Under the pieces are notes generated by a model, which ran no database searches, was not told the DNA's origin, and was given only the letters and a program-made list of their open reading frames with translations. DNA of 64,000 nucleotides, taken from Rhodovibrio salinarum DSM 9154 (lineage in GTDB: Bacteria > Pseudomonadota > Alphaproteobacteria > Kiloniellales > Rhodovibrionaceae). This document shows positions 1,360-16,453 of this stretch, piece by piece. Every line of letters starts with the position of its first letter. Position 1 is the first letter of the stretch. Location: contig NZ_KI911559.1 of assembly GCF_000515255.1 (NCBI RefSeq), positions 3,766,693-3,830,692 on the forward strand, given 5' to 3'. The translations under genes and the position numbers were made by a program.

Positions 1360-1404
1360 ATGAGACGACACGCTGCGCCGCTATGGCTTAGCCGTCGAAA
1401 ATGA
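1360..1404 (+). CDS. Possible 14-residue leader peptide
   Basis: A 14-codon frame (MRRHAAPLWLSRRK) starts 6 bases after a strong Shine-Dalgarno stretch, GGAGGGG. Its stop TGA overlaps the ATG at 1401 (ATGA), which is in frame with the acyl-AMP ligase. This could be a translated leader coupled to a longer ligase start, or chance. It is too short to assess by composition. Confidence 0.2.
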   Translation: MRRHAAPLWLSRRK

Positions 1405-1526
1405 CAAGCTCCGCCCCGCGGACGGCCTCAGGTGAAAAGGGGGATAGCCGCGCCGTACACCTGCCCGAAGCGTCCGGTCGGCGCGGCTCACGCGCCGGCG
1501 GACACGCTGAACACCAGCTGAGAGCG

Positions 1527-3359
1527 ATGAGGCAACCACAAGAGAGCCATGCCGTGGCTAATAAGCCTATGCCTGCCACCCCCGCCTCGGGGGCGCCAGA
1601 GGTAACACCCACCAGCGACCCGTCCCTGGCATACCGCCCTGCCGATTTCGCCAACCTGACCGACGCCCTGGACTACGCAGCCCGGGGTGAGACCGGGCTC
1701 AATTTCTACGACCGCCGGGGCCGAGTGGCGACCGTTGTGAGCTACGCCGCGTTGCGGCGGCGCGCACTTGAGGTGGCGCGCGGGCTCCTTGCCCAGGGGC
1801 TGGAGCGCGGCGAGCGCGTCGCGCTGGTTGCGGAGATGGCCCCAGCGTTCGCCGTCGGGTTTTTCGCCTGTCAATACGCGGGCCTTCACGCGGTGCCTGT
1901 GCCCGCGCAGGCCGGCCTGGGCAACTCGGCGGGTTACGTCGACGGTTTGCGGCGCATCCTTGTTAGTGCGCGCGCCCGGATCGCACTGGGCGGAGAGAGG
2001 GACCTCGAACCGCTTAAGGCGGCGGTGGCCGGACTGCAGGTCGGCCGTGTAACCACCGTCGCAGCGCTACTGGACGAGGCCGGTTCGGGGCCTGGGGAAG
2101 GCGCGCTGCAGCCGCTCGGCCCGGCGGAGATCAGCCACGTCCAGTACTCCTCGGGCAGCACGCGCGATCCCGTCGGCATACAGATCGATCAGCACGGGTT
2201 GATGGCGAACGCCGCACGCGCGGTGCGCGACGGGCTGGCCATCGGCGCCGACGACCGTGCGGTGTCCTGGTTGCCGTTTTACCATGATATGGGCCTCATC
2301 GGCTTTCTGGCGATGCCGGTAACCTGTCAGATGTCAGTGGATTATCTGGCGCCGGAGGCGTTCGCCCTGCGGCCCACGTTGTGGCTGGAGCTGATCTCGG
2401 CGAACCGCGGCACAGTGGCGTTCAGCCCGACCTTCGGCTACGAGCTCTGCACCCGCCGCGCGCCCGGGCTGAAAGAGCTAGATCTCAGCAGCTGGCGAAT
2501 CGCGGGGGTTGGTGGCGAGCGCGTGCGCCCGGAAACGCTGGAGGCCTTCGCCGCGACCTTCGCGCCGGCCGGCTTCCACGCGACGGCCTTCACGCCGTCC
2601 TACGGGCTGGCGGAAGCGACGCTTGCCGTAAGCTTCCACGCCACGAGGCACGCCCCGGTGGTCGACACGGTGGATGCCACGGCGCTGATGCGGGACGGTG
2701 AAGCCCGGCCGGTGTCGGCTGGCGACACCGCGCAGGCATGCCGTTTCGTTGCGTGTGGCCGGCCGCTGACCGACCATCAGGTCCAGATTCGGGACAGCGC
2801 CGGGCGCCGTCTTGCCGAGCGCGCGGTGGGCCGGATCTTCGTCGCTGGCCCCAGCCTGATGCGGGGCTACGTCGACAACGATGCGAACAGTGTCGGCGCG
2901 CCGCAGCCTGATGGGTGGCCGGACGGCTGGCTGGACACGGGCGATCTCGGCTACCTTGCCGACGGTGCCCTCTACGTCACCGGCCGCCGGAAGGATCTGA
3001 TCATCGTCAACGGCCGCAACATCCCACCGCAGGACCTGGAGTGGGTTGCTGAACAGGCGGTCGATAGGTTGTCCGACCGCGACACCGCCGCCTTCTCGGT
3101 GCTTGATTCGGCGGGGCGGGAAACACCGGTCTTGCTTGCGCAGATTCGCGCACGGGACCCGCAGGTCCGCAAGCGCCTGCGCGAGCGCATCCAGGCCGCG
3201 CTGTTCCAGAGCTTAGCTATCACCTGCCGTGTCATACTTGTCCCGCCGCGTAGCTTGCCGTTCACAAGCTCGGGTAAGCTCAGTCGGACCAAGGCGCGCG
3301 AGTTGTACCTTTCCGGCAGCTTGGGCAATGCCGGCCCGGCGGCAACAGCTGGCGAGTGA
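1527..3359 (+). CDS. aasR: Fatty acyl-AMP ligase / acyl-ACP synthetase of ceramide synthesis
   Basis: This adenylate-forming enzyme of about 610 residues should activate a fatty acid and load it onto the acyl carrier protein encoded two genes downstream. The AMP-binding loop reads YSSGSTRDPVGI, the Lys-less form typical of fatty acyl-AMP ligases. Further motifs are PSYGLAEATLA, WLDTGDLGYL, GRRKDLIIVNGRN and a C-terminal SSGKLSR holding the catalytic Lys. The start is uncertain: ATG 1527 follows GAGAG closely, but the frame stays open back to ATG 1401, and GTG 1554 is also possible. The stop is followed directly by the start of the next gene. In Caulobacter the equivalent enzyme, AasR, is one of five proteins needed for ceramide, and the same gene neighbours occur here. 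Confidence 0.8.
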   Translation: MRQPQESHAVANKPMPATPASGAPEVTPTSDPSLAYRPADFANLTDALDYAARGETGLNFYDRRGRVATVVSYAALRRRALEVARGLLAQGLERGERVALVAEMAPAFAVGFFACQYAGLHAVPVPAQAGLGNSAGYVDGLRRILVSARARIALGGERDLEPLKAAVAGLQVGRVTTVAALLDEAGSGPGEGALQPLGPAEISHVQYSSGSTRDPVGIQIDQHGLMANAARAVRDGLAIGADDRAVSWLPFYHDMGLIGFLAMPVTCQMSVDYLAPEAFALRPTLWLELISANRGTVAFSPTFGYELCTRRAPGLKELDLSSWRIAGVGGERVRPETLEAFAATFAPAGFHATAFTPSYGLAEATLAVSFHATRHAPVVDTVDATALMRDGEARPVSAGDTAQACRFVACGRPLTDHQVQIRDSAGRRLAERAVGRIFVAGPSLMRGYVDNDANSVGAPQPDGWPDGWLDTGDLGYLADGALYVTGRRKDLIIVNGRNIPPQDLEWVAEQAVDRLSDRDTAAFSVLDSAGRETPVLLAQIRARDPQVRKRLRERIQAALFQSLAITCRVILVPPRSLPFTSSGKLSRTKARELYLSGSLGNAGPAATAGE

Positions 3360-4340
3360 GTGGTGGCACCGTCTGCCGACACCACCGCCGGACCGGGGAC
3401 TTCCGCCCGGGCGACGCGGGTCGCGGTGACCGGGGCGGGCGGATTTCTCGGGCGGCGCGTCGTCGCCCAGCTGGCTAGGACGGGGTATTCCGTCCGCGCG
3501 CTCTACCACAGGCGCGGGCCTGACGGCACTGCGGACGTGGAGCCCGTTCGCGGCAGCCTGGCGGATGCGGAGGCCCTGGACCGACTCGTCGCGGGCTGCG
3601 ATGCGGTGATCCACTTGGCCGGTCTAGTCGCCGCTGACCGGCCGGGCCGGTTCGACGCGGTCAACCACGCCGGAACCGTCCGGCTGGCCGAGCGCGCGGC
3701 CGCCGCACGGGTTGGCCGCTTCCTTTTCGTCTCCAGTCTTGCGGCGCGGCATCCGGCGTTGTCGCCCTACGCGGCAAGCAAGCGCGCCGGAGAGCGGGCG
3801 TTGACCGGGCGCATGGATCTGCCGGTCGACGTGCTCCGGCCGCCGGCGGTGTACGGGCCGGGAGACCCGCAGATCCTTATGTTCCTGCGGTTGCTCCGGC
3901 TGCGGATCGCCCCGCTTCCCGGTCCGCCCACGGCCCGGGTCTGTCTCATCCACGCCGACGACGCGGCCTCAGCCATCGCCGCCTGGCTCGCGGGCCCGGG
4001 CGCGTCCGGGGCGATTTACGAGATCGCCGATGACCGGCCTGACGGCTACAGCTGGCGCGAGCTGATGGAGATAGCCGCATGTGCCTGTGGCGTGCGGCCG
4101 TGGTATTTGCGTCTCGGGCGGCCAGCCCTTATCCCGTTGGGGGCACTAGGCGAGGGGGTGGCGCGTCTCACCGGGCGGGCCGCGCCGTTATCGCGCGGCA
4201 AGGTGCGCGAGCTGACCCATCCCGATTGGCGGACCGACTGGACGGCCTTTGGCCGGCGAACCGGCTGGGGGCCCACTGTCGAGTTGCGCGCCGGGCTAAC
4301 CCGGACGGTCGACTGGTACCGGGCGCACGGCTGGCTCTAG
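3360..4340 (+). CDS. cerR: CerR-type NAD-dependent epimerase/reductase of ceramide synthesis
   Basis: A 326-residue extended short-chain dehydrogenase. The dinucleotide-binding motif TGAGGFLG is at residues 24-31, and the catalytic Ser is near 125 with YAASK at 137-141. In bacteria with this gene set CerR reduces the 3-keto group of the long-chain base or of oxidised ceramide. The GTG start is immediately adjacent to the TGA of the ligase gene, so translation is probably coupled. The family also contains sugar epimerases, so the assignment rests on context: ligase before, ACP and Spt after. Confidence 0.75.
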   Translation: MVAPSADTTAGPGTSARATRVAVTGAGGFLGRRVVAQLARTGYSVRALYHRRGPDGTADVEPVRGSLADAEALDRLVAGCDAVIHLAGLVAADRPGRFDAVNHAGTVRLAERAAAARVGRFLFVSSLAARHPALSPYAASKRAGERALTGRMDLPVDVLRPPAVYGPGDPQILMFLRLLRLRIAPLPGPPTARVCLIHADDAASAIAAWLAGPGASGAIYEIADDRPDGYSWRELMEIAACACGVRPWYLRLGRPALIPLGALGEGVARLTGRAAPLSRGKVRELTHPDWRTDWTAFGRRTGWGPTVELRAGLTRTVDWYRAHGWL

Positions 4341-4377
4341 GCGAGCCGGCGACCCCGCAACAACTGGAGCCGCAGCC

Positions 4378-4668
4378 ATGACCGAAAATACGGTTGGGAC
4401 GCCGACCCCGGAGCACCGCGAGATTGTTGAGGCCGTGTGCGCAGAACTGGAAAAACACAACACGACCGGCATTCAACTCCACGAAGATACCGACGTCACC
4501 GGCGAACTAGCGATCGACTCGGTCGCCGTGATGGATCTGATGTTCGAATTGGAAGAGCGGTTCGACATCGCGGTGCCATTGAACCAACTGGGGAGTGTAC
4601 GCACGATCGGGCAGATTGCGGACCTTGTCCGGTCGCAGGCCAAATCCGGGGGGCAGCAAACCGAATGA
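4378..4668 (+). CDS. acpR: Acyl carrier protein for serine palmitoyltransferase
   Basis: A 96-residue acidic carrier protein. The phosphopantetheine attachment motif is IDSVAVMDL with Ser48, and the helix II region LEERFDIAVP is clear. It probably carries the acyl chain loaded by the upstream ligase and hands it to the downstream Spt or to the ceramide synthase. The gene ends in an ATGA overlap with spt (4665-4668), a strong sign of coupled translation. Confidence 0.85.
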   Translation: MTENTVGTPTPEHREIVEAVCAELEKHNTTGIQLHEDTDVTGELAIDSVAVMDLMFELEERFDIAVPLNQLGSVRTIGQIADLVRSQAKSGGQQTE

Positions 4669-5873
4669 AAGATCTACTCGCCAAGTTCACCGCCGTCGGG
4701 CGCCAGCATGCTGAGCTCTTGGCCCAGGTTGGTAGCGATCCGCTCGGGGTCCGCGTCGATCGCGTGATCGGGCCAACAGAAGCGGAGATTGAGGGCCGTC
4801 GCTGCGTGCTCCTGGGCTCCAACAACTACCTGGGGCTGACCTTCGAGCCGACGGCGCTTGAGGGCGCGCACGCCGCCCTCGACGCAGCTGGAACTGGGAC
4901 CACCGGGTCGCGGGTGGCAAACGGCTCCTACAGTCTGCACCAGGACCTGGAGCGCCAGCTTGCGGCCTTCTTTGGGCGCCGGCACGCGCTGTTGTTCAGC
5001 ACCGGTTACCAGGCGAATGTCGGCATGCTCTCCGCGATCGCCGGCCGAGACGACACTGTCCTGATCGACTCCGACTGCCACGCCAGCATCTACGACGGCT
5101 GCAAACTGAGTGATGCCACGGTCCAGCGCTTCCGCCACAACGACCCGGAGAACCTGGACCGCCGTCTGGCCCGCCTGCAGGCGCCAGGCAACGCGCTGGT
5201 GGTGATCGAGGGGATTTACTCAATGCTGGGTGACCGCGCTCCCGTGCGGGAAATCGCCGAGGTCACCCGGCGTCACGGCGCCTATCTTATGGTGGACGAG
5301 GCGCATTCCCTGGGCGTGACCGGACCGGGCGCCCGTGGCGTCGCGGCGGAAGCGGGCGTCGCGGACAAGGTCGACTTCATCGTCGGCACCTTTTCCAAGA
5401 GTGTGGGCACGATCGGCGGGTTTTGCGCCGCCGACCACGACGCACTGGAAGCGATCCGCCTGTCGGCGCGCGCCTATCTCTTCACCGCATCCCTGCCCCC
5501 CGCTGTGGTAGCGTCGGCCAGGTGCACGCTGGAGCGAATGCGTACCGATCCCGGTTTGCGCGACCGGCTGTGGGCCAACGCCGAGATTGTCTACGACGGG
5601 CTCGCTCGAATGGGATTTGAGCTCGGGCCGGAGAAGACGCCGGTAATCGCCGTGCGCATGCCGGACACGCAGACCGGCCTCACCACTTGGCGCGACCTGC
5701 TGGACGACGGCGTGTACGTAAACCTAGCGCTACCCCCGGCAACCCCGAACGGCAACTGCCTGCTGCGCTGTTCCGTCTGCGCCGCGCACTCAGCCGACCA
5801 ACTGGACCACGTGCTTGCTGCATTCGCGCGGGTGGCGGACGCGCCCGATTGGCGCGGCACGGCCGCAGAGTAG
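4665..5873 (+). CDS. spt: Serine palmitoyltransferase
   Basis: A 402-residue alpha-oxoamine synthase that condenses serine with an acyl thioester to give 3-keto long-chain base, the committed step of sphingolipid synthesis. Visible features are GTGTTGSRVANGSY near 77-90, the PLP-stacking His139, Asp211 in DEAHSLG, and Lys245 in GTFSKSVGT, which forms the Schiff base with PLP. Length and motifs fit soluble bacterial Spt. Related enzymes (KBL, BioF, ALAS) share the fold, but the adjoining ACP, CerR and acyl ligase favour Spt strongly. The ATG start overlaps the ACP stop. Confidence 0.88.
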   Translation: MKDLLAKFTAVGRQHAELLAQVGSDPLGVRVDRVIGPTEAEIEGRRCVLLGSNNYLGLTFEPTALEGAHAALDAAGTGTTGSRVANGSYSLHQDLERQLAAFFGRRHALLFSTGYQANVGMLSAIAGRDDTVLIDSDCHASIYDGCKLSDATVQRFRHNDPENLDRRLARLQAPGNALVVIEGIYSMLGDRAPVREIAEVTRRHGAYLMVDEAHSLGVTGPGARGVAAEAGVADKVDFIVGTFSKSVGTIGGFCAADHDALEAIRLSARAYLFTASLPPAVVASARCTLERMRTDPGLRDRLWANAEIVYDGLARMGFELGPEKTPVIAVRMPDTQTGLTTWRDLLDDGVYVNLALPPATPNGNCLLRCSVCAAHSADQLDHVLAAFARVADAPDWRGTAAE

Positions 5874-5894
5874 CGTCTGCGACGGGCGCCGCCC

Positions 5895-6848
5895 TCAACG
5901 CAGCCCGCCGGCCCGGTAGATACGCCACAAAAGCGGCCAGCCGCCGATCAGCGGGTGCCGGCGCTGGAAAGGCGTTGGCCGAACCGCTACGCCGCTGTGC
6001 CGCTCGATCTTGGCGCATACGTAATCCACACCGCCGTCGAAGGTAAACGTGGCCTTGATCGCCCGGGCGAGCGACAGCACTTTGCCCGCCGGTCGGGCGA
6101 CTTGGCTCGCCAGCTGGGCGCGCCCGCGCTGCCAGCGTGTCAGATGCACCCGCACGCGGCCATCATCGCTCAGGGACGCATGCGGCGAGAGGCAGCGGAT
6201 AGCCGTTGGCGTGCGGGCCGTCAGCGCGGTACCCCCCGCCGCCACGATCGCCCGGGCCCGTGCCGGCGCCTCGCTGCGCAGCTCCCGGGCGTAGGTCTCG
6301 GTTAGGCCGGCCTGCCAGAGATCGTGCGGGGTCGTGCGGTCGGGCAAAATGCCTAGAAGCTTGCGGTGAAAGCTCACGGTAGCAGCCGTCAGGGCGTCGA
6401 GGATCGCCGACCGGGTCGCCTCGTCGCGGGCGTATATCAGCCGGCACGGCTGGGCGAACCGGGCCCAGATGGAAGGGGTCGCCGACCGCCCAGCGGTCCC
6501 ACGCGCAAACTGCGTCCAAGTGACCACGGCCACCTTCGCTCCGACGAGTGTCCCGTCTTTGCATACGGTGGTTTCAAGATAGATCACGTTGGGCGGCAGG
6601 AGCCGATTAAGGCCGGCCAGTACCGGACCGAAACCGGTCGCGGATGGGGTGTCGACAAGCAGATACAGGTCGATCAAGTCGGCGTGACGCGGCGCCCACA
6701 GACTGCTACCGTAGAACAGTACCCCTACCACCTGCTCGCGCCGGCACCGCGCCAGCAGGGCGTCGACCGCCGCGCGAACCTGGGCGTCGACGGCGGTCTC
6801 CGCAGCTTCAACCACGAGGGCGCGCAAATCGGTCCACCCCTCGGACAT
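5895..6848 (-). CDS. TAM41-like nucleotidyltransferase, probable CDP-lipid or head-group enzyme
   Basis: A 317-residue protein. Near residue 40 it has YGSSLWAPRHADLIDLYLLVD spread over about 20 positions, a GS motif followed by an acidic strand as in polymerase-beta-fold transferases. The pattern GS-x-D-h-x-h-h-V resembles the mitochondrial CDP-diacylglycerol synthase TAM41. The sequence around TWTQFARGT and IWARFAQPCRLIY also recalls TAM41. In this operon it could convert ceramide-1-phosphate to a CDP-activated lipid; that is inference. It is the last gene of a leftward operon, starting 11 bases after the kinase stop, and converges on spt with a 21-base gap. Caulobacter has a comparable set of cpg genes next to spt. 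Confidence 0.5.
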   Translation of the reverse strand: MSEGWTDLRALVVEAAETAVDAQVRAAVDALLARCRREQVVGVLFYGSSLWAPRHADLIDLYLLVDTPSATGFGPVLAGLNRLLPPNVIYLETTVCKDGTLVGAKVAVVTWTQFARGTAGRSATPSIWARFAQPCRLIYARDEATRSAILDALTAATVSFHRKLLGILPDRTTPHDLWQAGLTETYARELRSEAPARARAIVAAGGTALTARTPTAIRCLSPHASLSDDGRVRVHLTRWQRGRAQLASQVARPAGKVLSLARAIKATFTFDGGVDYVCAKIERHSGVAVRPTPFQRRHPLIGGWPLLWRIYRAGGLR

Positions 6849-6859
6849 GATCGTAGGCC

Positions 6860-7819
6860 TCACGCCACGACGAAGCGGAGCGAGCTGTCCGACTGCACCG
6901 TAAGGGTGGCGTCGGCCGGACCGTCGAGCGGCTCCCCGTCTAGCACCCAGTCTTCGGTCGCGCTCAGCGCGACCGATCGGCAGCGGCATGCCGCGAACGG
7001 TTTCGACTCGATGGCCGTAAAGGACGGCCAAGGGCGCCATAGCGCGGACGGCGCACGCCGCCAGAGGCCTGGGACGTGGGCGTTGATCACCGCCACGCCG
7101 ACGCCATCGCCGGGCGATACCGGGCGTAAACCGAGCAGCAGCCGTTCAAGGCTGGTGACAATCACGGCGATGCGGGGTGCGGTCGCGCCCGGACTGTCGT
7201 TGCAGACGATCCGCACGTCGGCCGGTCGGAGGAGGGGCGTGGTTTTGAGCCCACCACACGCCAGGCGCCAAAGGCTCCAGATCAGGGCGAGCGACCACGC
7301 GAGTGGGCCAGCAATGCCGCGGGCATACAGACCGCGCCGCGCGGCTGCCGTTACCCGCGGGATCCCCACGCCGCCGAGGAAGAACCCGTAGGACGGCGGC
7401 GCGCCCGCGCTCCGCACCAGAAGCGGACGCCGCGTAACTATTGGCAGCTGGCCGTCGGTCGTGTCCCAGTGTTTGAGCAGGCGTGCAAGAGCGGCCGCGG
7501 GCGCGCCTGGGCAGCCGGCATCGCGGGCGATCATGTTGGTGCTGCCGCCGGACAAAACCGCAAGAATCGGCTCGCGAGTGAAAGGCTTGTGCCGGCGCAG
7601 CGCGGTCACGACTGCGACCACCGTGCCGTCGCCGCCGTCGATCGCGAGCACGCGAGTGTTCCGCGCCGCGAGGGTGCGCAGCGCGTTGGGAAGTTCCCGT
7701 AGCCTCGCCGGTTGTAGATGGTCGATCCCGCGGGCGCGGGTGAGCGCCTCGAGCTCGCGGCGAGCGCGCGTGCGGTTGTTGCCGCTGGCCGGGTTGGACA
7801 AGACCGCGATATCGCTCAT
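6860..7819 (-). CDS. cpgB: Diacylglycerol-kinase-family lipid kinase, probable ceramide kinase
   Basis: A 319-residue protein of the DAGK catalytic family. The nucleotide-binding motif DGGDGT is at 61-66 and LSGGSTNMIARD is near 90. Such kinases phosphorylate a lipid hydroxyl. Placed beside spt and between a CDP-alcohol transferase and a nucleotidyltransferase, it fits the role of Caulobacter CpgB, which makes ceramide-1-phosphate. The start codon overlaps the stop of the upstream gene by four bases (ATGA). A generic diacylglycerol or sphingosine kinase cannot be excluded from sequence alone. Confidence 0.65.
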   Translation of the reverse strand: MSDIAVLSNPASGNNRTRARRELEALTRARGIDHLQPARLRELPNALRTLAARNTRVLAIDGGDGTVVAVVTALRRHKPFTREPILAVLSGGSTNMIARDAGCPGAPAAALARLLKHWDTTDGQLPIVTRRPLLVRSAGAPPSYGFFLGGVGIPRVTAAARRGLYARGIAGPLAWSLALIWSLWRLACGGLKTTPLLRPADVRIVCNDSPGATAPRIAVIVTSLERLLLGLRPVSPGDGVGVAVINAHVPGLWRRAPSALWRPWPSFTAIESKPFAACRCRSVALSATEDWVLDGEPLDGPADATLTVQSDSSLRFVVA

Positions 7820-9018
7820 ACTGGTGCCTTGAGCCAAGATGCGACTGGCTGTCCACGGGTGTTCGCCCGCTCCGCTTGCACGGTCCGGAGGAGATGGATG
7901 ACAGCGGAGGCCAGGATCCATGCGGTCGTGGCCAGGATTCCTAGATCTGGGCGGCCGGCGAGCCAGGCCAGTGTCAGCAGCACGAGGCACGGGTTACGGC
8001 GGGCGGTGATTTGTCGGAACCCGGAATCGAACCGTGTCCAGACGAACAACTCAAAGCCGAACCGACGGGTGAAATACCCTTCCGGCAGCCGGCCCAAGAC
8101 GTAGCCAACGAAAATCGCCGCCACGGTCCAATCGAGCCACGGCTGTGGCAGCGCGTGACCGGTCTCCACCAGCCCGTAAGCCCAGGCCGCGTACCACAGC
8201 GGCGGGTGCACAAGATCAATGCCATGGTCGAACAGGTTACCGAACTTCGATGACGACAGGGTAACGCGTGCCAGCTTGCCGTCAACGGTATCGAGGAAGG
8301 TCATCAACCAAGCTGCGAGCAACCCCCAACCGTAAGCACTCGTAGCGAACGCCCACAGCGCGGCCAACACCAGTACCGCGCTCAAAAGCGTGACCGCGTT
8401 CGGGGTCACGCCCAGGCGGACGCAGCCGCGTGTCGCCCACATCGCCGGTACCGGCCAGACGTGTTTGGTGACGGCGTCCGTTATACCCTTGTAGGCAGCC
8501 ATGTACACACGCCGCTCCACCGCGCGCTGTGTGGCGCGATCAACTTGCAGGCAGTAGGGGGGCTCGCGCTTACGCAGCTTCCCGCGGTAGGCGTCCCCGG
8601 CGTGCTCCGGCGCGCACGGAGTGGTACCGTCCGGTGGCAGGCCTTCGCCTGTCAGCCATGCTCGCGCTTGCTCGGTCTGGCGGGCGGGGACGTGAACGGC
8701 CAGGCGCACCGTGCCGTTGTCGGTCGGGCGCTCCAGGCGCGTTCCCGGCTGGTTCAGCAGGGCCGACAGGAGAGGCGTGTCGTACACGACGTCGCCGCGC
8801 AGCAGCAGGACGCGCTTGGTCCGGGGGTACGATCCACGTGCCGCCCACGACACGTCCGCCACGCTGAGGCCCTTGAACTGGCGGTGAATCCGCTGTTCCG
8901 GTTCGAGCCCCCAAACCTTGACCGGCTCTTCGGACCTCACGACATAAACCGTTACGGCGGAGTTGTTAGGCTCGGTGGTATGTGTCACCAATGAAAATCC
9001 CGCCTTGCTTCCGGACAT
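7816..9018 (-). CDS. CDP-alcohol phosphatidyltransferase with an N-terminal nucleotidyltransferase-like domain
   Basis: A 400-residue integral membrane enzyme. Residues 1-175 look like a worn nucleotidyltransferase domain: it keeps LLLRGDVVYD near 71-80 but lacks a clear GxGxR loop. From about 185 the CDP-alcohol transferase begins, with the full signature D243-x2-DG-x2-AR-x8-G-x3-D264-x3-D268 and several hydrophobic helices. The two-domain layout resembles the IPCT/DIPPS enzymes that make phosphodiester polyols. Here it probably joins a CDP-activated partner to ceramide phosphate or adds a polyol phosphate head group; the substrate is unknown. It is the first gene of the leftward three-gene operon. 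The start was chosen at ATG 9018; an in-frame ATG at 9060 would overlap the divergent gene. Confidence 0.75.
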   Translation of the reverse strand: MSGSKAGFSLVTHTTEPNNSAVTVYVVRSEEPVKVWGLEPEQRIHRQFKGLSVADVSWAARGSYPRTKRVLLLRGDVVYDTPLLSALLNQPGTRLERPTDNGTVRLAVHVPARQTEQARAWLTGEGLPPDGTTPCAPEHAGDAYRGKLRKREPPYCLQVDRATQRAVERRVYMAAYKGITDAVTKHVWPVPAMWATRGCVRLGVTPNAVTLLSAVLVLAALWAFATSAYGWGLLAAWLMTFLDTVDGKLARVTLSSSKFGNLFDHGIDLVHPPLWYAAWAYGLVETGHALPQPWLDWTVAAIFVGYVLGRLPEGYFTRRFGFELFVWTRFDSGFRQITARRNPCLVLLTLAWLAGRPDLGILATTAWILASAVIHLLRTVQAERANTRGQPVASWLKAPV

Positions 9019-9040
9019 CTGAATGTCGCCGAACGCCCCG

Positions 9041-9904
9041 ATGAGGCTTTTCGCACACATTTCCGATTTGCACCTACCGCCGCTGCCAGCGATCCGGCCG
9101 CGCGAATTCACGGGCAAGCGTCTGCTGGGATACGTGGTCTGGCACCGACGGCGCAAGTATGAACATCGCGTCGAGGTGTTAGACGCTTTGCTCCACGAGC
9201 TGGCCTGTCAGGCGCCCGATCATGTCGTAATCACCGGCGATCTAACCAACCTCGGCTTGGCCGCGGAGTTTGAGGGCGTTGCGCGCTGGCTCAGACGTCT
9301 CGGGCCCACGAGGGCCGTCACCCTGATTCCGGGTAACCACGATGCCTACGTCCAAGCGAGCGAAGAGGCGATGCGATTGGCGTTGCGGCCCTGGCTGCTG
9401 GACGACGACGGGGCGGCCGAGTTTCCGCTCCTGCAAGTCCGTGGCGGGGTCGCTTTCATCGGGGTTTCGACGGCGATACCAACGGGCATCGGGCAGGCCC
9501 ATGGCCGGGTTGGATGCGAGCAGATGTCGCGACTGGCGGCGATTCTCCGCACCGCTTTGGCTCGCGGACTCACACGCGTGGTGGCTTTGCACCATCCACC
9601 CCAGTGGGGCGCCGAAAACTGGCGCCGGGGCTTGGACGATGCTTCGGCCTTGCGCGCGATAATCGCCAAGGAGGGCGCGGACTTGGTTCTGCACGGCCAT
9701 GCCCATGGGCCCCGTCAAGCCGACCTGCCGGGCCCGCACGCGCCTGTCCCGGTTTACGGGGTGGCTTCCGCGTCGTTGCTGAAAAACAGGACGCACCAGA
9801 CTGGGCACTACCGCCTTTTCCGGCACCGCGCTGGTGGCCACTTCGCCGTCGAGGAGCGATGCTTCGATCCAGCGATCGGGACGTTCACTGCAGCCCGGGT
9901 ATAA
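9041..9904 (+). CDS. Metallophosphoesterase (Icc-like), possible lipid-phosphate phosphatase
   Basis: A 287-residue calcineurin-like phosphoesterase with all metal-binding blocks: SDLHL near residue 8, GDLTN, GNHD, HHPPQW and GHAHG. The start ATG 9041 gives the usual MRLFAHISDLHL beginning; ATG 9023 is in frame and only 4 bases from the divergent start codon. In phospholipid synthesis a phosphatase removes a terminal phosphate after CDP-dependent head-group transfer, so a similar role on ceramide head groups is possible but inferred. Cyclic-nucleotide phosphodiesterase activity is the default family prediction. Confidence 0.7.
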   Translation: MRLFAHISDLHLPPLPAIRPREFTGKRLLGYVVWHRRRKYEHRVEVLDALLHELACQAPDHVVITGDLTNLGLAAEFEGVARWLRRLGPTRAVTLIPGNHDAYVQASEEAMRLALRPWLLDDDGAAEFPLLQVRGGVAFIGVSTAIPTGIGQAHGRVGCEQMSRLAAILRTALARGLTRVVALHHPPQWGAENWRRGLDDASALRAIIAKEGADLVLHGHAHGPRQADLPGPHAPVPVYGVASASLLKNRTHQTGHYRLFRHRAGGHFAVEERCFDPAIGTFTAARV

Positions 9905-9975
9905 GCCTTGGGTATAAGCCTGCAGCCGCGCGCTTCGAGGCGGCGGCGCTCGCGACGGTGTGAGCCGACAACTGT

Positions 9976-10004
9976 TTGACATTCACCGACCCGGTATTTA
10001 CCGA
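9976..10004 (+). promoter_or_regulatory. Possible promoter before the LicC-like nucleotidyltransferase
   Basis: A perfect TTGACA (9976-9981) is followed after 17 bases by TACCGA (9999-10004). The -35 box is perfect, the -10 box is weak. It lies 45 bases upstream of the start codon in a 144-base gap. Confidence 0.35.
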
Positions 10005-10048
10005 ATTCTCCTTAGCGGTCAGCGCCGCCATGGGTCAACGGGGTTTTC

Positions 10049-10804
10049 ATGAAAGCGATCATCCTGAGCGCTGGACAGGGTAAGCGGTGTCTCCCATTGA
10101 CGAGCGAGACGCCCAAGTGTCTATTGCCGGTCGATCTTGATCACACCATTCTGACGTGGCAAATCTCGGTGCTCACGGCTGCGGGCATTACTGAATGCGT
10201 TGTCGTGTCGGGCTTCGAAGCCGGTCGTATTGATGAAGAACTAGCCCGGAAGCGTCTGTCGTCAGCGCGCACGATCTACAATCCCTTCTACGATGTCTCG
10301 GACAACCTAGCATCGGTCTGGTGCGCCCTTCCGGAAGCCACGGAGGATTTTCTGCTGATCAACGGCGATACCCTGTTCGCACCGGCCACCGTGCGCCGGT
10401 TGTTGGCCTCTCATGCAACGATCACCGTCACGATTTCGCAGAAAGCGCGCTACGATGCCGACGACATGAAGGTGCGAGTGTCCGATGAGTTGGTATGCCA
10501 AATCGGCAAGCACCTCAACCCGACCTGTGCGGACGGCGAGGCGATTGGTATGACCCTGTTTCGCGGCTCCGGCCGCGACTGCTTTGCCGAGACCGTGTAT
10601 CGAAGCTTGCGCCGGCCCGGCGGCCGTGATTTGTGGTACCCAGCCGCGTTAGACGAACTAGCGCGCGGGGACGGGCTGACCGTATCGCATTGTAGTACGG
10701 ACGCGTGGTGCGAGGTTGATGTGCCAAGCGACCTACAACAGGCCCGCCAGGCCGTGCAGCGTTGGCGCAGCACGGGGGCGCCTCACCTGGCCGCCGTGTC
10801 GTGA
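10049..10804 (+). CDS. LicC-like sugar/alcohol-phosphate nucleotidyltransferase
   Basis: A 251-residue nucleotidyltransferase of the GT-A fold. The start MKAIILSAGQGKRCLPLT is the NTP-binding loop, followed by PKCLLPV. INGDTLF near 108 supplies the metal-binding Asp. The segment YNPFYDVSDNLASVW resembles the phosphocholine and inositol-phosphate cytidylyltransferases (LicC, IPCT) more than sugar enzymes. It could supply the CDP- or NDP-activated head group for the CDP-alcohol transferase, whose own N-terminal nucleotidyltransferase domain looks inactive. Its 3' end overlaps the converging next gene by 22 bases. Confidence 0.7.
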   Translation: MKAIILSAGQGKRCLPLTSETPKCLLPVDLDHTILTWQISVLTAAGITECVVVSGFEAGRIDEELARKRLSSARTIYNPFYDVSDNLASVWCALPEATEDFLLINGDTLFAPATVRRLLASHATITVTISQKARYDADDMKVRVSDELVCQIGKHLNPTCADGEAIGMTLFRGSGRDCFAETVYRSLRRPGGRDLWYPAALDELARGDGLTVSHCSTDAWCEVDVPSDLQQARQAVQRWRSTGAPHLAAVS

Positions 10805-11610
10805 GCGCCCGGGCCCTGTCGCGCGATCCGGCGGACGAGCGCGAGGTCAGCTGGCGTATCGACATCGATCGCCGCTTCGGGCTGTTCCAGCAAAACCGGC
10901 GCAACTCGGCAGCCGATCTGTGCGGAAAGCCGCTCCAGCGCCTGCGCAAGGGTCCAACGGCGCAGAAGATAACCAACCAGGCTCGCCGGGCCGAGTCGCG
11001 CGGCGATACGATGCGGGGCCTTACGGCTCTGTTCCAGCTCGCGCCAGAAGGTCACGGCGCGCGACCCGGCCGGGCGCATCATGGCGTAAAGGTTACATCC
11101 GCTGTACACTCCGTCGCGCATCCGTAGCCTGCTGCAGCGCACTTCCGGGTAGCGTTGCGCCAGGATCTGAACCTGGTTCATGGCAACTGCGAAGTCACAG
11201 GCAGCCCGCTGTGCGCCGACCAAGACGTCGTCTACCATGGCGGCCGTTAGCAGCGGATGGTCTGCGGTGACGATCAGCAGCGGCCGGTCACCGGGTGCTA
11301 CGGCGGCGCCGTCGAGTGCGCTGGCCGCGCGCGAGGGTCCCGGTTCGCGTAAGCTCACCGACCCCGCGCGAATGTGCGCGGGCAATTCCGTGAGGTGGGC
11401 CGTCGTCACGGCGTCTCGGCTCAGACTCAGCGTGACGTGGGTGATCCGATCGCTGGCGAGGAGGGCCGCAACCACCCGCTCGACCATTGCGGTGCCGGCC
11501 ACTCGCGCGAATGGCTTGGCCGCGACCGAGTCGGCCTGGGCCACGGGATGGGTCCGATCGACGCCGCCTGCGAGCACGAGCGCGTGCGCTCTTGCACCGT
11601 CGTTCGTCAT
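10783..11610 (-). CDS. MobA-like NTP transferase in the ceramide synthase operon
   Basis: A 275-residue nucleotidyltransferase. It opens with HALVLAGGVDR and an AKPFARVAGTAMVERV segment, and has LLIVTADHPLLT near residue 115 as the metal-binding region; IDVDTPADLALV lies at the C-terminus. The loop lacks the usual GxG-R-M, so the nucleotide used is unclear. It is the last gene of the leftward operon starting with the HIT gene, and its ATG overlaps the ceramide synthase stop by four bases. It is a second candidate for making the activated head group. Confidence 0.6.
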   Translation of the reverse strand: MTNDGARAHALVLAGGVDRTHPVAQADSVAAKPFARVAGTAMVERVVAALLASDRITHVTLSLSRDAVTTAHLTELPAHIRAGSVSLREPGPSRAASALDGAAVAPGDRPLLIVTADHPLLTAAMVDDVLVGAQRAACDFAVAMNQVQILAQRYPEVRCSRLRMRDGVYSGCNLYAMMRPAGSRAVTFWRELEQSRKAPHRIAARLGPASLVGYLLRRWTLAQALERLSAQIGCRVAPVLLEQPEAAIDVDTPADLALVRRIARQGPGAHDTAAR

Positions 11611-12749
11611 CTCAATGCCTTGCGATAGAGCCGGTAACGTTTGTCCTCCTCAGCCCTCAACAGCTCGAGTAAGCGGATCATCGGTTCGTTGTCCTCCAGA
11701 ATCCACGACAGTTCGAACTCGGCCATGTTTAGGCCGCGGGCGGCCTCATGGAGGCGTTGCATCATCAGTGCGCTCAGCCCGGCGGCAAGGTTGCCGCCTT
11801 GGTAACGCCGTCGCACGCCCATAAGCATAACCCTGCCGTGTTCCGGTGGGCGGAACTTAATCCGCCACAGCAGCCACGCCCAACCGAACGGCAGCAGCCG
11901 GCCGCGCAACTCGCGCAGAACTATGTAGAGGTCAGGCACGGCGACGATCATTGCCACCGGCTCGCCGTCGTATTCCGAGATACGGACCAACTCCGGGCGG
12001 ATAATCGGTTTCAGGCTTCGGGTCATGTGGCGGACTTCCGCCTCTGTCATCTGGACAAAGCCCCAATTACCGGACCAGGCATCGTTGAACACGTTGGCGA
12101 CCCGACGCATCTCCGCATTGAGGTCGCGCATATCGAGTTGCCGTTCCCGAACGCGCGGGTCAGCGGCGGCGCTACGGGCGACGAGCGCGGCTCTTGCGGG
12201 AAAGCTCTGATTAACGTTCGCCCGGTACGCGAGCAGGTCCTTGGCCTTGATGTAGCCGGCCTTCTCTAGGGCCTTGGCGTACCATGCAGGGCCGTAGTTC
12301 ATTAGCACCCTTGGCGGGCGGTCGTGCCCCACCACGAGAAGCCCAGTCTCATCGTTGCTGGACAGGCTGTACGGGCCCTCCGACAGCGCTGCGCCCTCGT
12401 CCAGGAGCCAGGCTTCCGCCGCCTCCAGGAGCGCGTGCAGAACCTCTTGGTCGGCGGCCTCAACCAGGCCGAAATGGCCGATCGGCGTACCGAGATCCGG
12501 TTGCGCAAGCCAGTCGATCTGCGCGCTTATCCGGCCCACCGGCCGTCGGTTCCGGCATGCGAGGAAGAATCGTGCGCGGGCGTGCTCGAAATAGGGGTTG
12601 GCTGTGCCGAAATGCTGGCGCCGCTCGAATTGCAGCGGCGGAACCCAGTTCGGATCGTTGTGATAAAGCGCGAAGGGGACGCGAACGAACGCGCGCAGGT
12701 CTCGCCGGCTGTCGACCGGTCGCACCGCGATCTCTTCAGGTTCCGTCAT
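11607..12749 (-). CDS. bcerS: Bacterial ceramide synthase (GNAT-fold N-acyltransferase)
   Basis: A 380-residue protein that should N-acylate the sphingoid base to give (dihydro- or keto-)ceramide. It matches the family annotated as a large GNAT-like acyltransferase: an N-terminal part with FVRVPFALYHNDPNWVPPL, a middle part with EGPYSLSSNDETGLLV, and a C-terminal acyl-CoA-fold region with RRRYQGGNLAAGLS. FALYxxDPxWVPPL is characteristic of the group that includes Caulobacter bCerS. It sits 4 bases after the permease gene and overlaps the next gene by 4. The assignment is strengthened by spt, acpR, cerR and aasR nearby. Confidence 0.75.
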   Translation of the reverse strand: MTEPEEIAVRPVDSRRDLRAFVRVPFALYHNDPNWVPPLQFERRQHFGTANPYFEHARARFFLACRNRRPVGRISAQIDWLAQPDLGTPIGHFGLVEAADQEVLHALLEAAEAWLLDEGAALSEGPYSLSSNDETGLLVVGHDRPPRVLMNYGPAWYAKALEKAGYIKAKDLLAYRANVNQSFPARAALVARSAAADPRVRERQLDMRDLNAEMRRVANVFNDAWSGNWGFVQMTEAEVRHMTRSLKPIIRPELVRISEYDGEPVAMIVAVPDLYIVLRELRGRLLPFGWAWLLWRIKFRPPEHGRVMLMGVRRRYQGGNLAAGLSALMMQRLHEAARGLNMAEFELSWILEDNEPMIRLLELLRAEEDKRYRLYRKALR

Positions 12750-12753
12750 TGCC

Positions 12754-13830
12754 TCAGCTTTCCGCCATAATCAGCGACCAAAACGCTAGGGCGGCGAACA
12801 TGACTGCCGGGGCCCAGGCCGCGAAGGCGGGCGGCAGCACGGCAGTCTCACCCAGCGGGATCAGCAACCGTTCCAAGCCGAAGTAAAGCGCGCCCGCGGC
12901 CAGGGTTGCCAGCCCCAGTAGCACGAGTTGCCGCCGGCGCGCATGCTGATATGCCATGTGTGCCGGAAGCAGCGCCATCACCAAGCACGAGACAGGTTGA
13001 GCCAATTTGCGGTGCGTCCAAAACCGGTAATACCGGGGTGTGCGTTCGCTGTAGCCTGCGTCCTTGCGCAAGGACCATGCTTCGCCGAACGACAGTTCCT
13101 CGGGGCCCTGGCCAAAATTGCCGAAACGACTGGGATCCCACCGGAACGCAGGGATAGGTGTTTCTTGCGCAGGACCGCTGTCGCGCGCAGCGACCAGTCG
13201 CTCGACCCCGTCCAAGCGCCAGCGCCCGTCGACAAATCGGGCTTTTTGCGCTTTGAAGAACGCCTCGAGCCCGCCGGCGGGATCGCGCTGGATAACAACC
13301 ACGTCGTGCAGCCTTTGTCCGTCAGCTGATGCCAGTCCGATGTGCACGATGGCGCTGTCCGCGGCCAGCCAGAGCCCCTGCTCCTCCGAGCGCGCGCCTG
13401 GAGGCAGCCCGGCGTAACCGCGCGCCTGCCAGGTCGCCAGCCTGCCGGCGGTCTCGACCGCGACCAGGTTGGCGAACAGGAAGTGCGCGCCAGCAACCAG
13501 CGCGGCGCCTATCAGAAGGATCCCGGTGATCTGCGTACCGGAAACACCGGCGGCACGCGCGACCACGAGCTCTTGGGAGGCGACTAGCGCGATCAGGGTC
13601 AGAAGCGCGCCGATCAGCACGGCGAGAGGAACCAGCAGGACCACCAGCGTGGGCAGCCTGAGACTGGCATAGGCAATCAAGCCAAGCCCGATGGGCGCGC
13701 CGCCGTCCAGCACGGCGTGGATGTGCGCAAGTGTGTCGAAAACCGTCAGCACAAGACCCAGTGCGGCGAGGGCGAGAGCGAAGCGCGCAAAGAACGTGAC
13801 CAGAAGGTAGCGGGCAAAGGTCAACGGCAT
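12754..13830 (-). CDS. LptF/LptG-family permease (second of pair)
   Basis: A 358-residue membrane protein with three N-terminal helices (about 10-35, 50-80, 95-115), a periplasmic beta-rich middle of about 150 residues and three C-terminal helices, the LptF/LptG layout. In canonical Lpt machines two such subunits with the ATPase LptB extract lipopolysaccharide from the inner membrane. Here the gene is not beside lptD but between another LptF-like gene and the ceramide synthase. This suggests a paralogue dedicated to sphingolipid export; that is inference. The ATG follows the previous stop by two bases. Confidence 0.75.
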   Translation of the reverse strand: MPLTFARYLLVTFFARFALALAALGLVLTVFDTLAHIHAVLDGGAPIGLGLIAYASLRLPTLVVLLVPLAVLIGALLTLIALVASQELVVARAAGVSGTQITGILLIGAALVAGAHFLFANLVAVETAGRLATWQARGYAGLPPGARSEEQGLWLAADSAIVHIGLASADGQRLHDVVVIQRDPAGGLEAFFKAQKARFVDGRWRLDGVERLVAARDSGPAQETPIPAFRWDPSRFGNFGQGPEELSFGEAWSLRKDAGYSERTPRYYRFWTHRKLAQPVSCLVMALLPAHMAYQHARRRQLVLLGLATLAAGALYFGLERLLIPLGETAVLPPAFAAWAPAVMFAALAFWSLIMAES

Positions 13831-13832
13831 CG

Positions 13833-14978
13833 TCAGGCGGCCTTTGAAACGGACGCGTGGCGGCGGCGCAGGGGCCCGAGGTTGCCAGCTTGAGCGATCC
13901 GCAGAAGACCCGCCGCTAGAAGCGCAAACGCAGCCACGACCCCCCATTGGCCGCCCCACGGTGGCAGCGTCCCGGACGCGACCAGTCCTTCCGCGAGCGC
14001 CAGCAGCTTCTGATAGAGGACCAGCACGCCAATCCCCACGGCGAAGCGCGTCAAGCGGCTGACACGCCCGGCGCGCAGGACCGGTATTGGTGCGGCCAGA
14101 ACCGCGAGCAGCGGGATCGACACTGCCGACACCAAGCGTTTGTTCAGTTCCGCAACACGGACCTCCTGGCTGAGATCGCCGCCGGCTGCCGGGGTGTCGG
14201 AAAGCAGTTCCGGTACTGTAAGTTCGCGCTCGTCCTTGCCGCGCGGACCGCGCGAGGTGGTCCCCTGGACCGGTAGCGGCCAGATGTAGTGCTCGAAGTC
14301 GACTTTCTCCACGCCGCTGGCACCTCCTCGGTCGCGGATCAGGGTGCCTTGAGCCATCCGTACAACCAGCCGTTCGGTTTCGCGATCGGTGCTAAGCGTT
14401 CCTGCCTTGGCCAGCACGTAGGTACGTCCGTCGCCCGGCCGATCGCGGGCGGCGAAGACCCGCTCAAAATTTTGCCCGCGAGGACCGACTGCCCCCGCCC
14501 GCAGCACCGTGCCGTCGCCAATGTCGTAGAACACCCCGGGCAGGATCCGCATCGGCAAACGGGAAGCCATCACGTCGCGCAACGTGTCTCGGTAGGCGTA
14601 CCGGCCGTAAGGTTGCAGGAAGGCCGTGTTAACGGCCATCAATGCCGCCAACAGCAGAGCCGCGACCACCAGCGGGCGTAGCAGGCGGGTCAGCGGTATG
14701 CCGGCGGCATGCATCACCGACAACTCGCTGTCGTGGCGCATTTGGTGGAGAGAAGTCAGGACGGCCAGGAACGCGGCTGCCGGCACGGCCAGCCCGAGGT
14801 AGTGGGGAAGCAGCGCGACGATCATGTCGAGCGCGCGCCCAACTGACGCACCTCGATCGGTTACCGTTCGGGTGATCTCGAGCAGACGCTCCAAGGTGAG
14901 GGCCAGAAGCATCACGGCCAGCATGACCGTGAAGTGGAAGGCCGCACGACGCAGCAGGTACCGAGATAGAACCGTCAT
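13833..14978 (-). CDS. LptF/LptG-family permease (first of pair)
   Basis: A 381-residue membrane protein with the same layout as its downstream partner: helices near 10-32, 50-75 and 90-112, a soluble periplasmic region to about 270, then three helices. The segment MHAAGIPLTRLLRPL after helix 2 is typical of LptF-type coupling helices contacting LptB. The start ATG 14978 was preferred to TTG 15026, which would overlap the HIT gene. No lptB, lptC or lptA gene was found in the window, so it must borrow these or use others. Its position in the ceramide synthase operon suggests lipid export. Confidence 0.75.
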   Translation of the reverse strand: MTVLSRYLLRRAAFHFTVMLAVMLLALTLERLLEITRTVTDRGASVGRALDMIVALLPHYLGLAVPAAAFLAVLTSLHQMRHDSELSVMHAAGIPLTRLLRPLVVAALLLAALMAVNTAFLQPYGRYAYRDTLRDVMASRLPMRILPGVFYDIGDGTVLRAGAVGPRGQNFERVFAARDRPGDGRTYVLAKAGTLSTDRETERLVVRMAQGTLIRDRGGASGVEKVDFEHYIWPLPVQGTTSRGPRGKDERELTVPELLSDTPAAGGDLSQEVRVAELNKRLVSAVSIPLLAVLAAPIPVLRAGRVSRLTRFAVGIGVLVLYQKLLALAEGLVASGTLPPWGGQWGVVAAFALLAAGLLRIAQAGNLGPLRRRHASVSKAA

Positions 14979-15013
14979 CGGAGTGCGGATGGGGGCGTGG
15001 ACGTCCCCATCGC

Positions 15014-15448
15014 TTAGTCTGGCCAAGCCGCAACGAGCCGGGCGTGCAGCCTGTCCGTCGTCACGGCGGGCAGCTCGACGCTGTGTGCCAAGTCAGGCGG
15101 ACCGGGCCAGCCCGGGTCCGAACAGCTGATCTCGTCGAAAACGCGCGTTTGCGCGTAGCGCGGCAACACATGGTAGTGCACATGGGGATCCTTCATCATC
15201 AACATCAGGTAGTTGATTTTGTCGTACGCCAGGGCATCCGTTAGGGCCCGCTCGATCGCCCGGACCACCGTTGCAGCCTCGGCGAACGCCGCGTCAGGAA
15301 GCTGGGCGAACGCGGTCGCCTCCGCCTTGGCGATCAGGACGAGCGCACCGAGCGTCGCCTGCCGCGGGCGCCGTTGAACCGTCCAGTGCGTATAGTCCGC
15401 GATCACTGTATCCGGGTAGCCAAATTCGGTCATCGTCCCGTGAGCCAT
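15014..15448 (-). CDS. HIT-family hydrolase
   Basis: A 144-residue protein with the histidine triad HVHYHVL near residue 92. HIT proteins hydrolyse or transfer nucleotides from phosphoramidates, dinucleoside polyphosphates or NDP-alcohols. It is the first gene of the five-gene operon leading to the ceramide synthase, preceded by GGTGGGAGC. A role in handling nucleotide by-products of head-group transfer is possible but not shown by sequence. Confidence 0.8.
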   Translation of the reverse strand: MAHGTMTEFGYPDTVIADYTHWTVQRRPRQATLGALVLIAKAEATAFAQLPDAAFAEAATVVRAIERALTDALAYDKINYLMLMMKDPHVHYHVLPRYAQTRVFDEISCSDPGWPGPPDLAHSVELPAVTTDRLHARLVAAWPD

Positions 15449-15593: not shown

Positions 15594-16295
15594 TCAAGTG
15601 AAATCCGCTGCTGGCTGCATCACGATCCGGGAGCCGTCGTCGTGCTGGAATGCAACCCGGAGCAGTAGCCCCCGGTCATCGTACCAGACGTCCCGCTGCA
15701 CCTCGCCGCCCAGGCGGTAGTGCCGGGCCGTCTGACGTGTGTCGCCGATCCGGACGGCTTCGCGCCCGATGTCCTGCGTGGCGTTGGTTTTCATCCAGCC
15801 GTCCTCGACCTCCAGAAGCTGTGGTGCCTGTGGGGTCCGGGGGTGCCAGAGCGTCGTCGTGAGGGGGCTTTCCGGGAACGTTCTGCGTTCACCCTTATGG
15901 TTCTCCAGCACCAGCGGACCGTCGCCGTCGCGTACGCCCGCCAGGCTTTTCTCTTTGCCGTTCTTGCGGGTTTGACTGTCGAGACCAATCAGGGTGTCGC
16001 CTCGCCAGCGTTCGACAGAGGTATGGCGGTAGCTGTATAAAGGGACGGAGAACAGTGTGACCACAAGATCAATCTCGGTGGTTACCGCCAGAATGTCGCC
16101 GTTCTGGCGTAGCGTACGAATGTGTGCGCCGATCGGGCGGCCTTCGCGCAGAACCGTATATCGGTACCGGCCAACGGGAGGCTCGACCGCAGCCCGTGCG
16201 TGGACATTCCCCAGGACTGCCAGGCATGCCCCGACCGCGCCGATACGGAGGGCAAAACCGCGTCGCGTGAAACCGCGTCGTGCCAAGGTAATCAC
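15594..16295 (-). CDS. DUF6134-type exported protein with Tat-like signal
   Basis: About 233 residues. The N-terminus carries TRRGFALRIGAVGACLAVLG followed by an ARA cleavage site, close to the twin-arginine pattern. The mature part is beta-rich with YRYTVLREGRPIGAH and RDVWYDDRGLLLRVAF, resembling DUF6134/DUF3108 periplasmic proteins. Start GTG 16295 places the signal at the N-terminus; ATG 16367 in frame would add 24 residues before it. The function is not known. A periplasmic protein next to a lipid-export operon might help carry lipid. A 145-base gap separates it from the HIT gene. Confidence 0.6.
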   Translation of the reverse strand: MITLARRGFTRRGFALRIGAVGACLAVLGNVHARAAVEPPVGRYRYTVLREGRPIGAHIRTLRQNGDILAVTTEIDLVVTLFSVPLYSYRHTSVERWRGDTLIGLDSQTRKNGKEKSLAGVRDGDGPLVLENHKGERRTFPESPLTTTLWHPRTPQAPQLLEVEDGWMKTNATQDIGREAVRIGDTRQTARHYRLGGEVQRDVWYDDRGLLLRVAFQHDDGSRIVMQPAADFT

Positions 16296-16453
16296 TAACC
16301 TGCCGATGGTTGCTGGAACGGGTGGCCAGGATTTCAAGATTGTATCTGAACCGGTATACTTAACCATGCCCCAACGCAATTGTTATCGGTGCGTGAGTGC
16401 ACCTTGACCGCATGCGCACGCCAGCCCGCGGTCCCCGCTCCAGTGCTCGGGAG

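Follow-up and report, generated by a model that had tools for sequence, protein, structure and literature searches.

The 64,000-nucleotide stretch of Rhodovibrio salinarum DSM 9154 analysed here (the window; contig NZ_KI911559.1, positions 3,766,693 to 3,830,692) is part of a 4.18 Mb genome assembled as a single contig and carries a sphingolipid locus at 1.4-15.4 kb (1401-15448 by open reading frame (ORF) calls and family matches). Judged by homology, this locus very probably encodes a Caulobacter-type phosphosphingolipid pathway, in which ceramide would be converted to ceramide phosphoglycerate (CPG), then to CPG2, and exported. The pathway itself is already known; the novel part is a phylogenetic profile over 69 alphaproteobacterial genomes bearing the ceramide synthase CerS. 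From this profile, we lean cautiously towards a scheme of nested, separately inherited modules, one for ceramide, one for CPG (CpgB-CpgC-NTP2) and one for CPG2 (CpgA-CpgD, often with a HIT-domain protein). In this scheme, CpgC would convert ceramide-1-phosphate to CPG with the help of a hitherto missing partner, the nucleotidyltransferase NTP2 (CC_1153 in Caulobacter), whose published place after CPG would then be incorrect or incomplete; the CPG2 genes would include that of the HIT protein (CC_1157), and in 24 of the 69 sampled genomes the route would end at CPG or at a similar lipid with one phosphate.

In Caulobacter, the region CC_1168-CC_1152 comprises the ceramide genes, six genes for the head group, and LptC2/F2/G2 (PMC11324152); CC_1168 is the second LptC, and CC_1166 is a potential flippase. 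Eleven biosynthetic genes and LptF2/LptG2 have been mapped, and other proteobacteria were shown to carry the cluster (PMC11324152, PMC12275187, PMC10331486); the route from ceramide to CPG and CPG2, with presumed export, has also been described (PMC11324152, PMC12275187, PMC13228409). Enzymatic activity was assayed for the ceramide kinase CpgB (PMC10331486) and for CpgD, which synthesizes cytidine diphosphate (CDP)-glycerate (PMC12275187, PMC13228409). CC_1158 was described as a phosphoesterase and CC_1153 as CofC-like (PMC11324152), the published hint for CpgC is an InterPro CDP-diacylglycerol synthase domain, and CC_1157 was regarded as 'probably unrelated'. The conversion of ceramide-1-phosphate to CPG has been drawn as an 'unidentified mechanism' (PMC13228409, May 2026); in the searched portions of papers after PMC11324152, the CpgC step is called 'unidentified' and CC_1153 is unmentioned. 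CPG2 can partly replace lipopolysaccharide (LPS) in Caulobacter and is the presumed polymyxin target there.

Distribution of the head-group genes in CerS-bearing genomes

The search for CerS covered 61 genomes from the order and 385 from the class; the 69 positive alphaproteobacterial genomes, which belong to 31 families, were then searched whole with a profile of each head-group protein. The positive control, CpgB (proven to be a ceramide kinase in Caulobacter), was found in 60 genomes (lowest 182 bits, next non-fragment rival 55). CpgC (no further match at E 0.001) and NTP2 (lowest full-length match 183 bits) were likewise found in 60 each, and all three occupy an identical set of genomes, the sets of CpgC and NTP2 having been compared by hand; CpgC of G221 is divided between two contigs, and NTP2 of G263 was scored as present from a gene cut at a contig end. 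A second identical set, of 36 genomes nested within the 60, is shared by CpgA (lowest 364 bits; next 238, in genomes already having one) and CpgD (lowest 312 bits, next 142). The HIT protein (30/69; lowest 176 bits, next 29) occurs in 30 of these 36 and in none of the other 33. There are thus 24 genomes, from eight families, that have CpgB, CpgC, and NTP2 without CpgA, CpgD, and HIT, and nine genomes, from six families, that are devoid of all six genes.

Since NTP2 shares its set of 60 genomes with CpgB and CpgC, the profile suggests that it belongs to the ceramide-to-CPG step and predicts that it is required for CPG formation, against its published placement after CPG. The HIT protein, all 30 of whose genomes lie within the CpgA/CpgD set, is similarly suggested to belong to the CPG2 module. 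NTP2/CC_1153 and the overlooked HIT/CC_1157 are thereby singled out as genes to test, and a simple genomic rule predicts whether a bacterium makes CPG2 or CPG alone. The phosphoesterase (45/69; lowest 219 bits, next 84) is spread over all three genome classes (27/36 with CpgA/CpgD, 15/24 with CpgB/CpgC/NTP2 only, and 3/9 with neither), and was therefore tied to neither head-group module. An apparent absence of CpgA/CpgD from G032 in the neighbourhood table was rejected, as the whole-genome search found both genes further along the same contig; for this reason, neighbourhood absence alone was not trusted.

Physical linkage was also surveyed. HIT, CpgA, and CpgD are grouped together, away from NTP2 and CpgC, in G031-G033 and G260. 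In G086, G217, and G314, from which CpgA, CpgD, and HIT are absent, a segment of about 7.5 kb distant from CerS holds CpgB, CpgC, NTP2, and the phosphoesterase, and in family f34 NTP2 adjoins CpgB and CpgC, also far from CerS. Among loci of at least 17 kb, direct adjacency was counted 69 times for NTP2 and CerS and 59 times for CpgB and CpgC.

With regard to shared ancestry, a tree of CerS from 59 genomes requires no fewer than nine changes of the CpgA/CpgD state and no fewer than four of the CpgB/CpgC/NTP2 state. The CpgA/CpgD state differs over nine independent pairs when all branches are used; in the tree-based independent-pair tests, supported changes were too few for significance (four pairs on starred branches). 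The gene association is therefore strong in counts and modest after correction for kinship, because independent supported changes are few.

Some variant loci were seen as well. Near LptFG and CerS in L133, L110, L157, L158, and L161-L163 lies an additional CDP-alcohol transferase resembling CpgA (about 205-267 bits), which possibly catalyses a further head-group step, and such a paralogue is present in five of the six CpgA/CpgD genomes without HIT. Compact CerS-phosphoesterase-Spt-AcpR-CerR-AasR clusters without CpgB, CpgC, and NTP2 are found in L164, L165, and L166 (G125, G414, and G337), where the phosphoesterase goes with ceramide and not with a phosphoglycerate head group.

Predicted chemistry and alternative readings

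By homology with the known Caulobacter route, AasR would load a fatty acid onto AcpR, serine palmitoyltransferase (Spt) would condense the AcpR-bound fatty acid with serine, and CerS and CerR would make dihydroceramide. CpgB, as shown for the Caulobacter enzyme, would then phosphorylate ceramide, and the fold of CpgC suggests that it most likely converts ceramide-1-phosphate to CDP-ceramide. NTP2, going by its co-occurrence, would be needed to reach CPG, where it may activate phosphoglycerate or ceramide-1-phosphate. CpgD would make CDP-glycerate, as shown in Caulobacter, from which CpgA, to judge by its full CDP-alcohol phosphotransferase signature and AF2299-like fold, would move phosphoglycerate onto CPG to give CPG2 and cytidine monophosphate; the HIT protein may aid this module, perhaps by hydrolysing a nucleotide by-product. 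LptF2/LptG2 would probably take the lipid from the inner membrane toward the outer membrane.

The CpgC model (AlphaFold2, alignment of 35 sequences) has a predicted local distance difference test (pLDDT) score of 92 and matches Tam41 7ecd with a VIA-align Z of 19.2 over 228 residues at a root-mean-square deviation of 3.1, the next fold reaching Z 9.3. It shares with the mitochondrial-type CDP-diacylglycerol synthase Tam41 (7ecd, 6ig4) the fold and the GS...D nucleotidyltransferase motif, but is only 16% identical to it, and the proposed lipid substrate is ceramide-1-phosphate. As CpgC has no Pfam or NCBIfam match, so that no Tam41 family model recognises the sequence, it was filed as Tam41-like in fold only. 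The model supports CpgC most likely being a cytidine triphosphate (CTP):ceramide-1-phosphate cytidylyltransferase, which is predicted to form CDP-ceramide.

The CpgA model (pLDDT 93) matches AF2299 with Z 24.4 over 319 residues and IPCT-DIPPS with Z 22.8. The same two-part architecture, a cytidylyltransferase-like domain and a membrane transferase, is present in these enzymes (4o6m, 4mnd), and CpgA has the full signature D-x2-DG-x2-AR-x8-G-x3-D-x3-D, invariant in 20 homologues at all eight residues (D220, D223, G224, A227, R228, G237, D241, and D245). In contrast to AF2299/IPCT-DIPPS, cytidylyltransferase activity would reside here on the separate protein CpgD, and the substrate would be glycerate. 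HHalign gave only a weak 34-column match between CpgA and CpgD, and the N-terminal domain of CpgA was therefore judged by fold. Taken with the CDP-glycerate made in Caulobacter (PMC12275187), we infer from the models that CpgA and CpgD would give a coherent second step. NTP2 has profile matches to 2dpw (TTHA0179), IspD, and the 3-phospho-D-glycerate guanylyltransferase 7p97.

The published order, in which NTP2 acts between CPG and CPG2 and would be kept in genomes without CpgA/CpgD for another extension of CPG, is a serious possibility, though in our judgement a less probable one. According to the parts of PMC11324152 consulted, deletion of CC_1153 in Caulobacter abolished CPG2 and strengthened the thin-layer chromatography spot that was attributed to CPG, which favours this order; however, the same mutant, which grows poorly, also accumulates ceramide as the CC_1160 and CC_1161 mutants do and the CC_1152 mutant does not, and the lipid spots of the mutants were assigned by thin-layer chromatography. 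NTP2 is, moreover, retained in all 24 genomes that have CpgB and CpgC without the CPG2 genes, absent from all nine that lack CpgB and CpgC, and, in f34, placed with CpgB and CpgC. Some observations weigh against the pathway as proposed here: no condensing enzyme for CDP-ceramide and glycerate is evident in genomes without CpgA, CpgB of the window is just 27% identical to the homologue of the Caulobacter locus, and a single LptC passes the Pfam cut-off genome-wide, so that the counterpart of Caulobacter LptC2 (CC_1168) may be missing or too divergent.

It is improbable that the locus makes another head group, such as phosphoglycerol or a phosphoryl sugar, by the same chemistry. The glycerate specificity of CpgD was shown for the Caulobacter enzyme only (PMC12275187), and CpgD of the window is 44% identical to a homologue from the Caulobacter group; on the other hand, no gene of the set is missing, and the matches of CpgD and CpgA extend over their full length. 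The chance that a KBL/BioF-type enzyme, a GNAT protein unrelated to it, and ordinary genes for LPS merely happen to lie together here is close to nil. Spt is a homologue of KBL and BioF, and each of the three gives scores with the models of the others, but Spt exceeds the serine palmitoyltransferase equivalog cut-off (Table 1) and falls below those of the rival models (bioF, 329 against 426; glycine C-acetyltransferase, 302 against 460); among solved structures, its best match is a bacterial serine palmitoyltransferase (1e-128), the next kind being KBL (1e-63). Grouping of Spt with KBL/BioF, which the sequence-only reading had named as a possible refutation, was not found by these scores and structure matches. 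An accidental neighbourhood was ruled out because of the family scores and of gene content and synteny conserved in many genomes. As side observations on Spt, it passes the NCBIfam 'SerpalmtaseBetaP' cut-off and not that of 'AlphaP' (485 against 670), despite the alphaproteobacterial genome, and a second, divergent Spt-CerS pair (31-33% identity) lies on a separate contig in L048 of G006, in addition to the main cluster of that genome.

Organization of the locus and its permease pair

The genes of the locus are listed in Table 1. Every gene named by the sequence-only reading is indeed present, with family scores and structure matches for each part, and its three nucleotidyltransferase-like proteins correspond to CpgC, CpgD, and NTP2, two of which are of the NTP_transf_3 type, while CpgC is the one with the Tam41 fold. 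Its gene list was right as far as it went and had passed over the metallophosphoesterase and the HIT protein. The proposed route from ceramide to an exported phospho-sphingolipid is very likely correct; its presentation as a fuller route than that known from Caulobacter fails, given the earlier descriptions cited above.

Table 1. Genes of the sphingolipid locus (window coordinates)
Gene product	Position	Strand	Basis
AasR-type fatty acyl-AMP ligase / acyl-ACP synthetase	1554..3359	+	NCBIfam NF006624 696 bits, cut-off 600
CerR-type NAD(P)-dependent reductase (epimerase/dehydrogenase)	3360..4340	+	Pfam Epimerase 2e-26; 43% identity to CerR of Caulobacter locus L109
AcpR, specialised acyl carrier protein (ACP)	4378..4668	+	Pfam PP-binding; between CerR and Spt as in relatives
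Spt, serine palmitoyltransferase	4665..5873	+	NCBIfam NF047599 603 bits, cut-off 500; 54% identity to L109 Spt
CpgC (CC_1161), Tam41-fold nucleotidyltransferase	5895..6848	-	Predicted-structure fold match; profile over genomes
CpgB (CC_1160), ceramide kinase homologue	6860..7819	-	Pfam DAGK_cat 1e-13
CpgA (CC_1159), CDP-alcohol phosphotransferase with N-terminal cytidylyltransferase-like domain	7816..9018	-	Pfam CDP-OH_P_transf
Metallophosphoesterase (CC_1158 counterpart)	9023..9904	+	Pfam Metallophos 7e-18; 46% identity to L109 homologue
CpgD (CC_1152), CTP:phosphoglycerate cytidylyltransferase homologue	10049..10804	+	Pfam NTP_transf_3; 44% identity to L109 CpgD
NTP2 (CC_1153), CofC/IspD-like nucleotidyltransferase	10783..11610	-	NTP_transf_3-type; profile matches to solved structures
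CerS, bacterial ceramide synthase type N-acyltransferase	11607..12749	-	Weak Pfam GNAT; 43-53% identity to homologues in synteny, 43% to Caulobacter-locus CerS
LptG2, second LptG-type permease	12754..13830	-	TIGR04408 222.6 bits, below cut-off 240
LptF2, second LptF-type permease	13833..14978	-	TIGR04407 210.6 bits, below cut-off 230
HIT-domain protein (CC_1157 counterpart by position)	15014..15448	-	Pfam HIT; 49% identity to L109 homologue

The start codon of AasR is uncertain, its ORF opening at 1401, and its closest solved structure is the fatty acyl-adenylate ligase 3pbk (4e-137); no solved structure was matched by a sequence search with CerS.

Gene order was compared with that of Caulobacter, a check proposed by the sequence-only reading. 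Each of the 14 genes of the locus has a match, at 27-54% identity, in both L109 (Caulobacter) and L084 (Phenylobacterium), and the operons HIT-LptF-LptG-CerS-NTP2, CpgA-CpgB-CpgC, and AasR-CerR-AcpR-Spt are preserved. The 14 consecutive genes CC_1165-CC_1152 thus have their counterparts in one stretch of 14 kb, in a rearranged order: the block HIT-LptF-LptG-CerS-NTP2, with CpgD, is inverted in the window, and counterparts of CC_1168-CC_1166 do not adjoin the locus. All five ceramide genes (aasR, cerR, acpR, spt, and cerS) of the Caulobacter-type CPG/CPG2 locus are present, as are CpgB and CpgC (by synteny homologues and the genome-wide profile) and the homologues of the CPG2-formation genes CpgA, CpgD, CC_1153, and CC_1158. 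The HIT protein, phosphoesterase, and NTP2 are equated with CC_1157, CC_1158, and CC_1153, respectively, as putative counterparts by gene order.

A second LptF/LptG pair, located elsewhere in the genome (4058784-4061017), exceeds the LPS equivalog cut-offs (LptF, 241 against 230; LptG, 284 against 240), whereas the pair of the locus stays below them; the latter was therefore taken as a paralogous second set. With regard to Escherichia coli, a DNA search with the window's own spt gave no match, and a search with the Stutzerimonas gene found spt in 4056 of 5426 complete genomes. As in the window, the yghO-spt cluster of strain A25 has an LptF/LptG pair beside aasR-cerR-acpR-spt and yghO, the last of which scores 505 bits with the CerS profile; unlike the window, that stretch is without CpgA, CpgB, CpgC, CpgD, NTP2, the phosphoesterase, and HIT. 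This analogy, in which ceramide genes and a permease pair occur without a head-group gene, ties the permeases to sphingolipids and supports the view that such pairs may go with ceramide lipids and not with any particular head group. Besides its LptF/LptG pair, the A25 locus (noted at L179 14001-15059) encodes a protein of the YtfJ family and one of the polysaccharide-flippase type.

Flanking genes

Just upstream of AasR, an ORF at 6-1139 (+) resembles by eye a TnpB-type RuvC-like protein without zinc finger, and has no Pfam match. On the other side, a DUF6134 protein (15594-16379, -) adjoins the locus and is also found near the cluster in L043, L150, and L152; its N-terminus looks by eye like an export signal, and it is possibly a periplasmic partner. 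It is followed by an ELM1-family protein (16397-17557, +), a homologue of which lies near CerS in many members of the order, with others in gammaproteobacterial loci, L116 and L090 among them.

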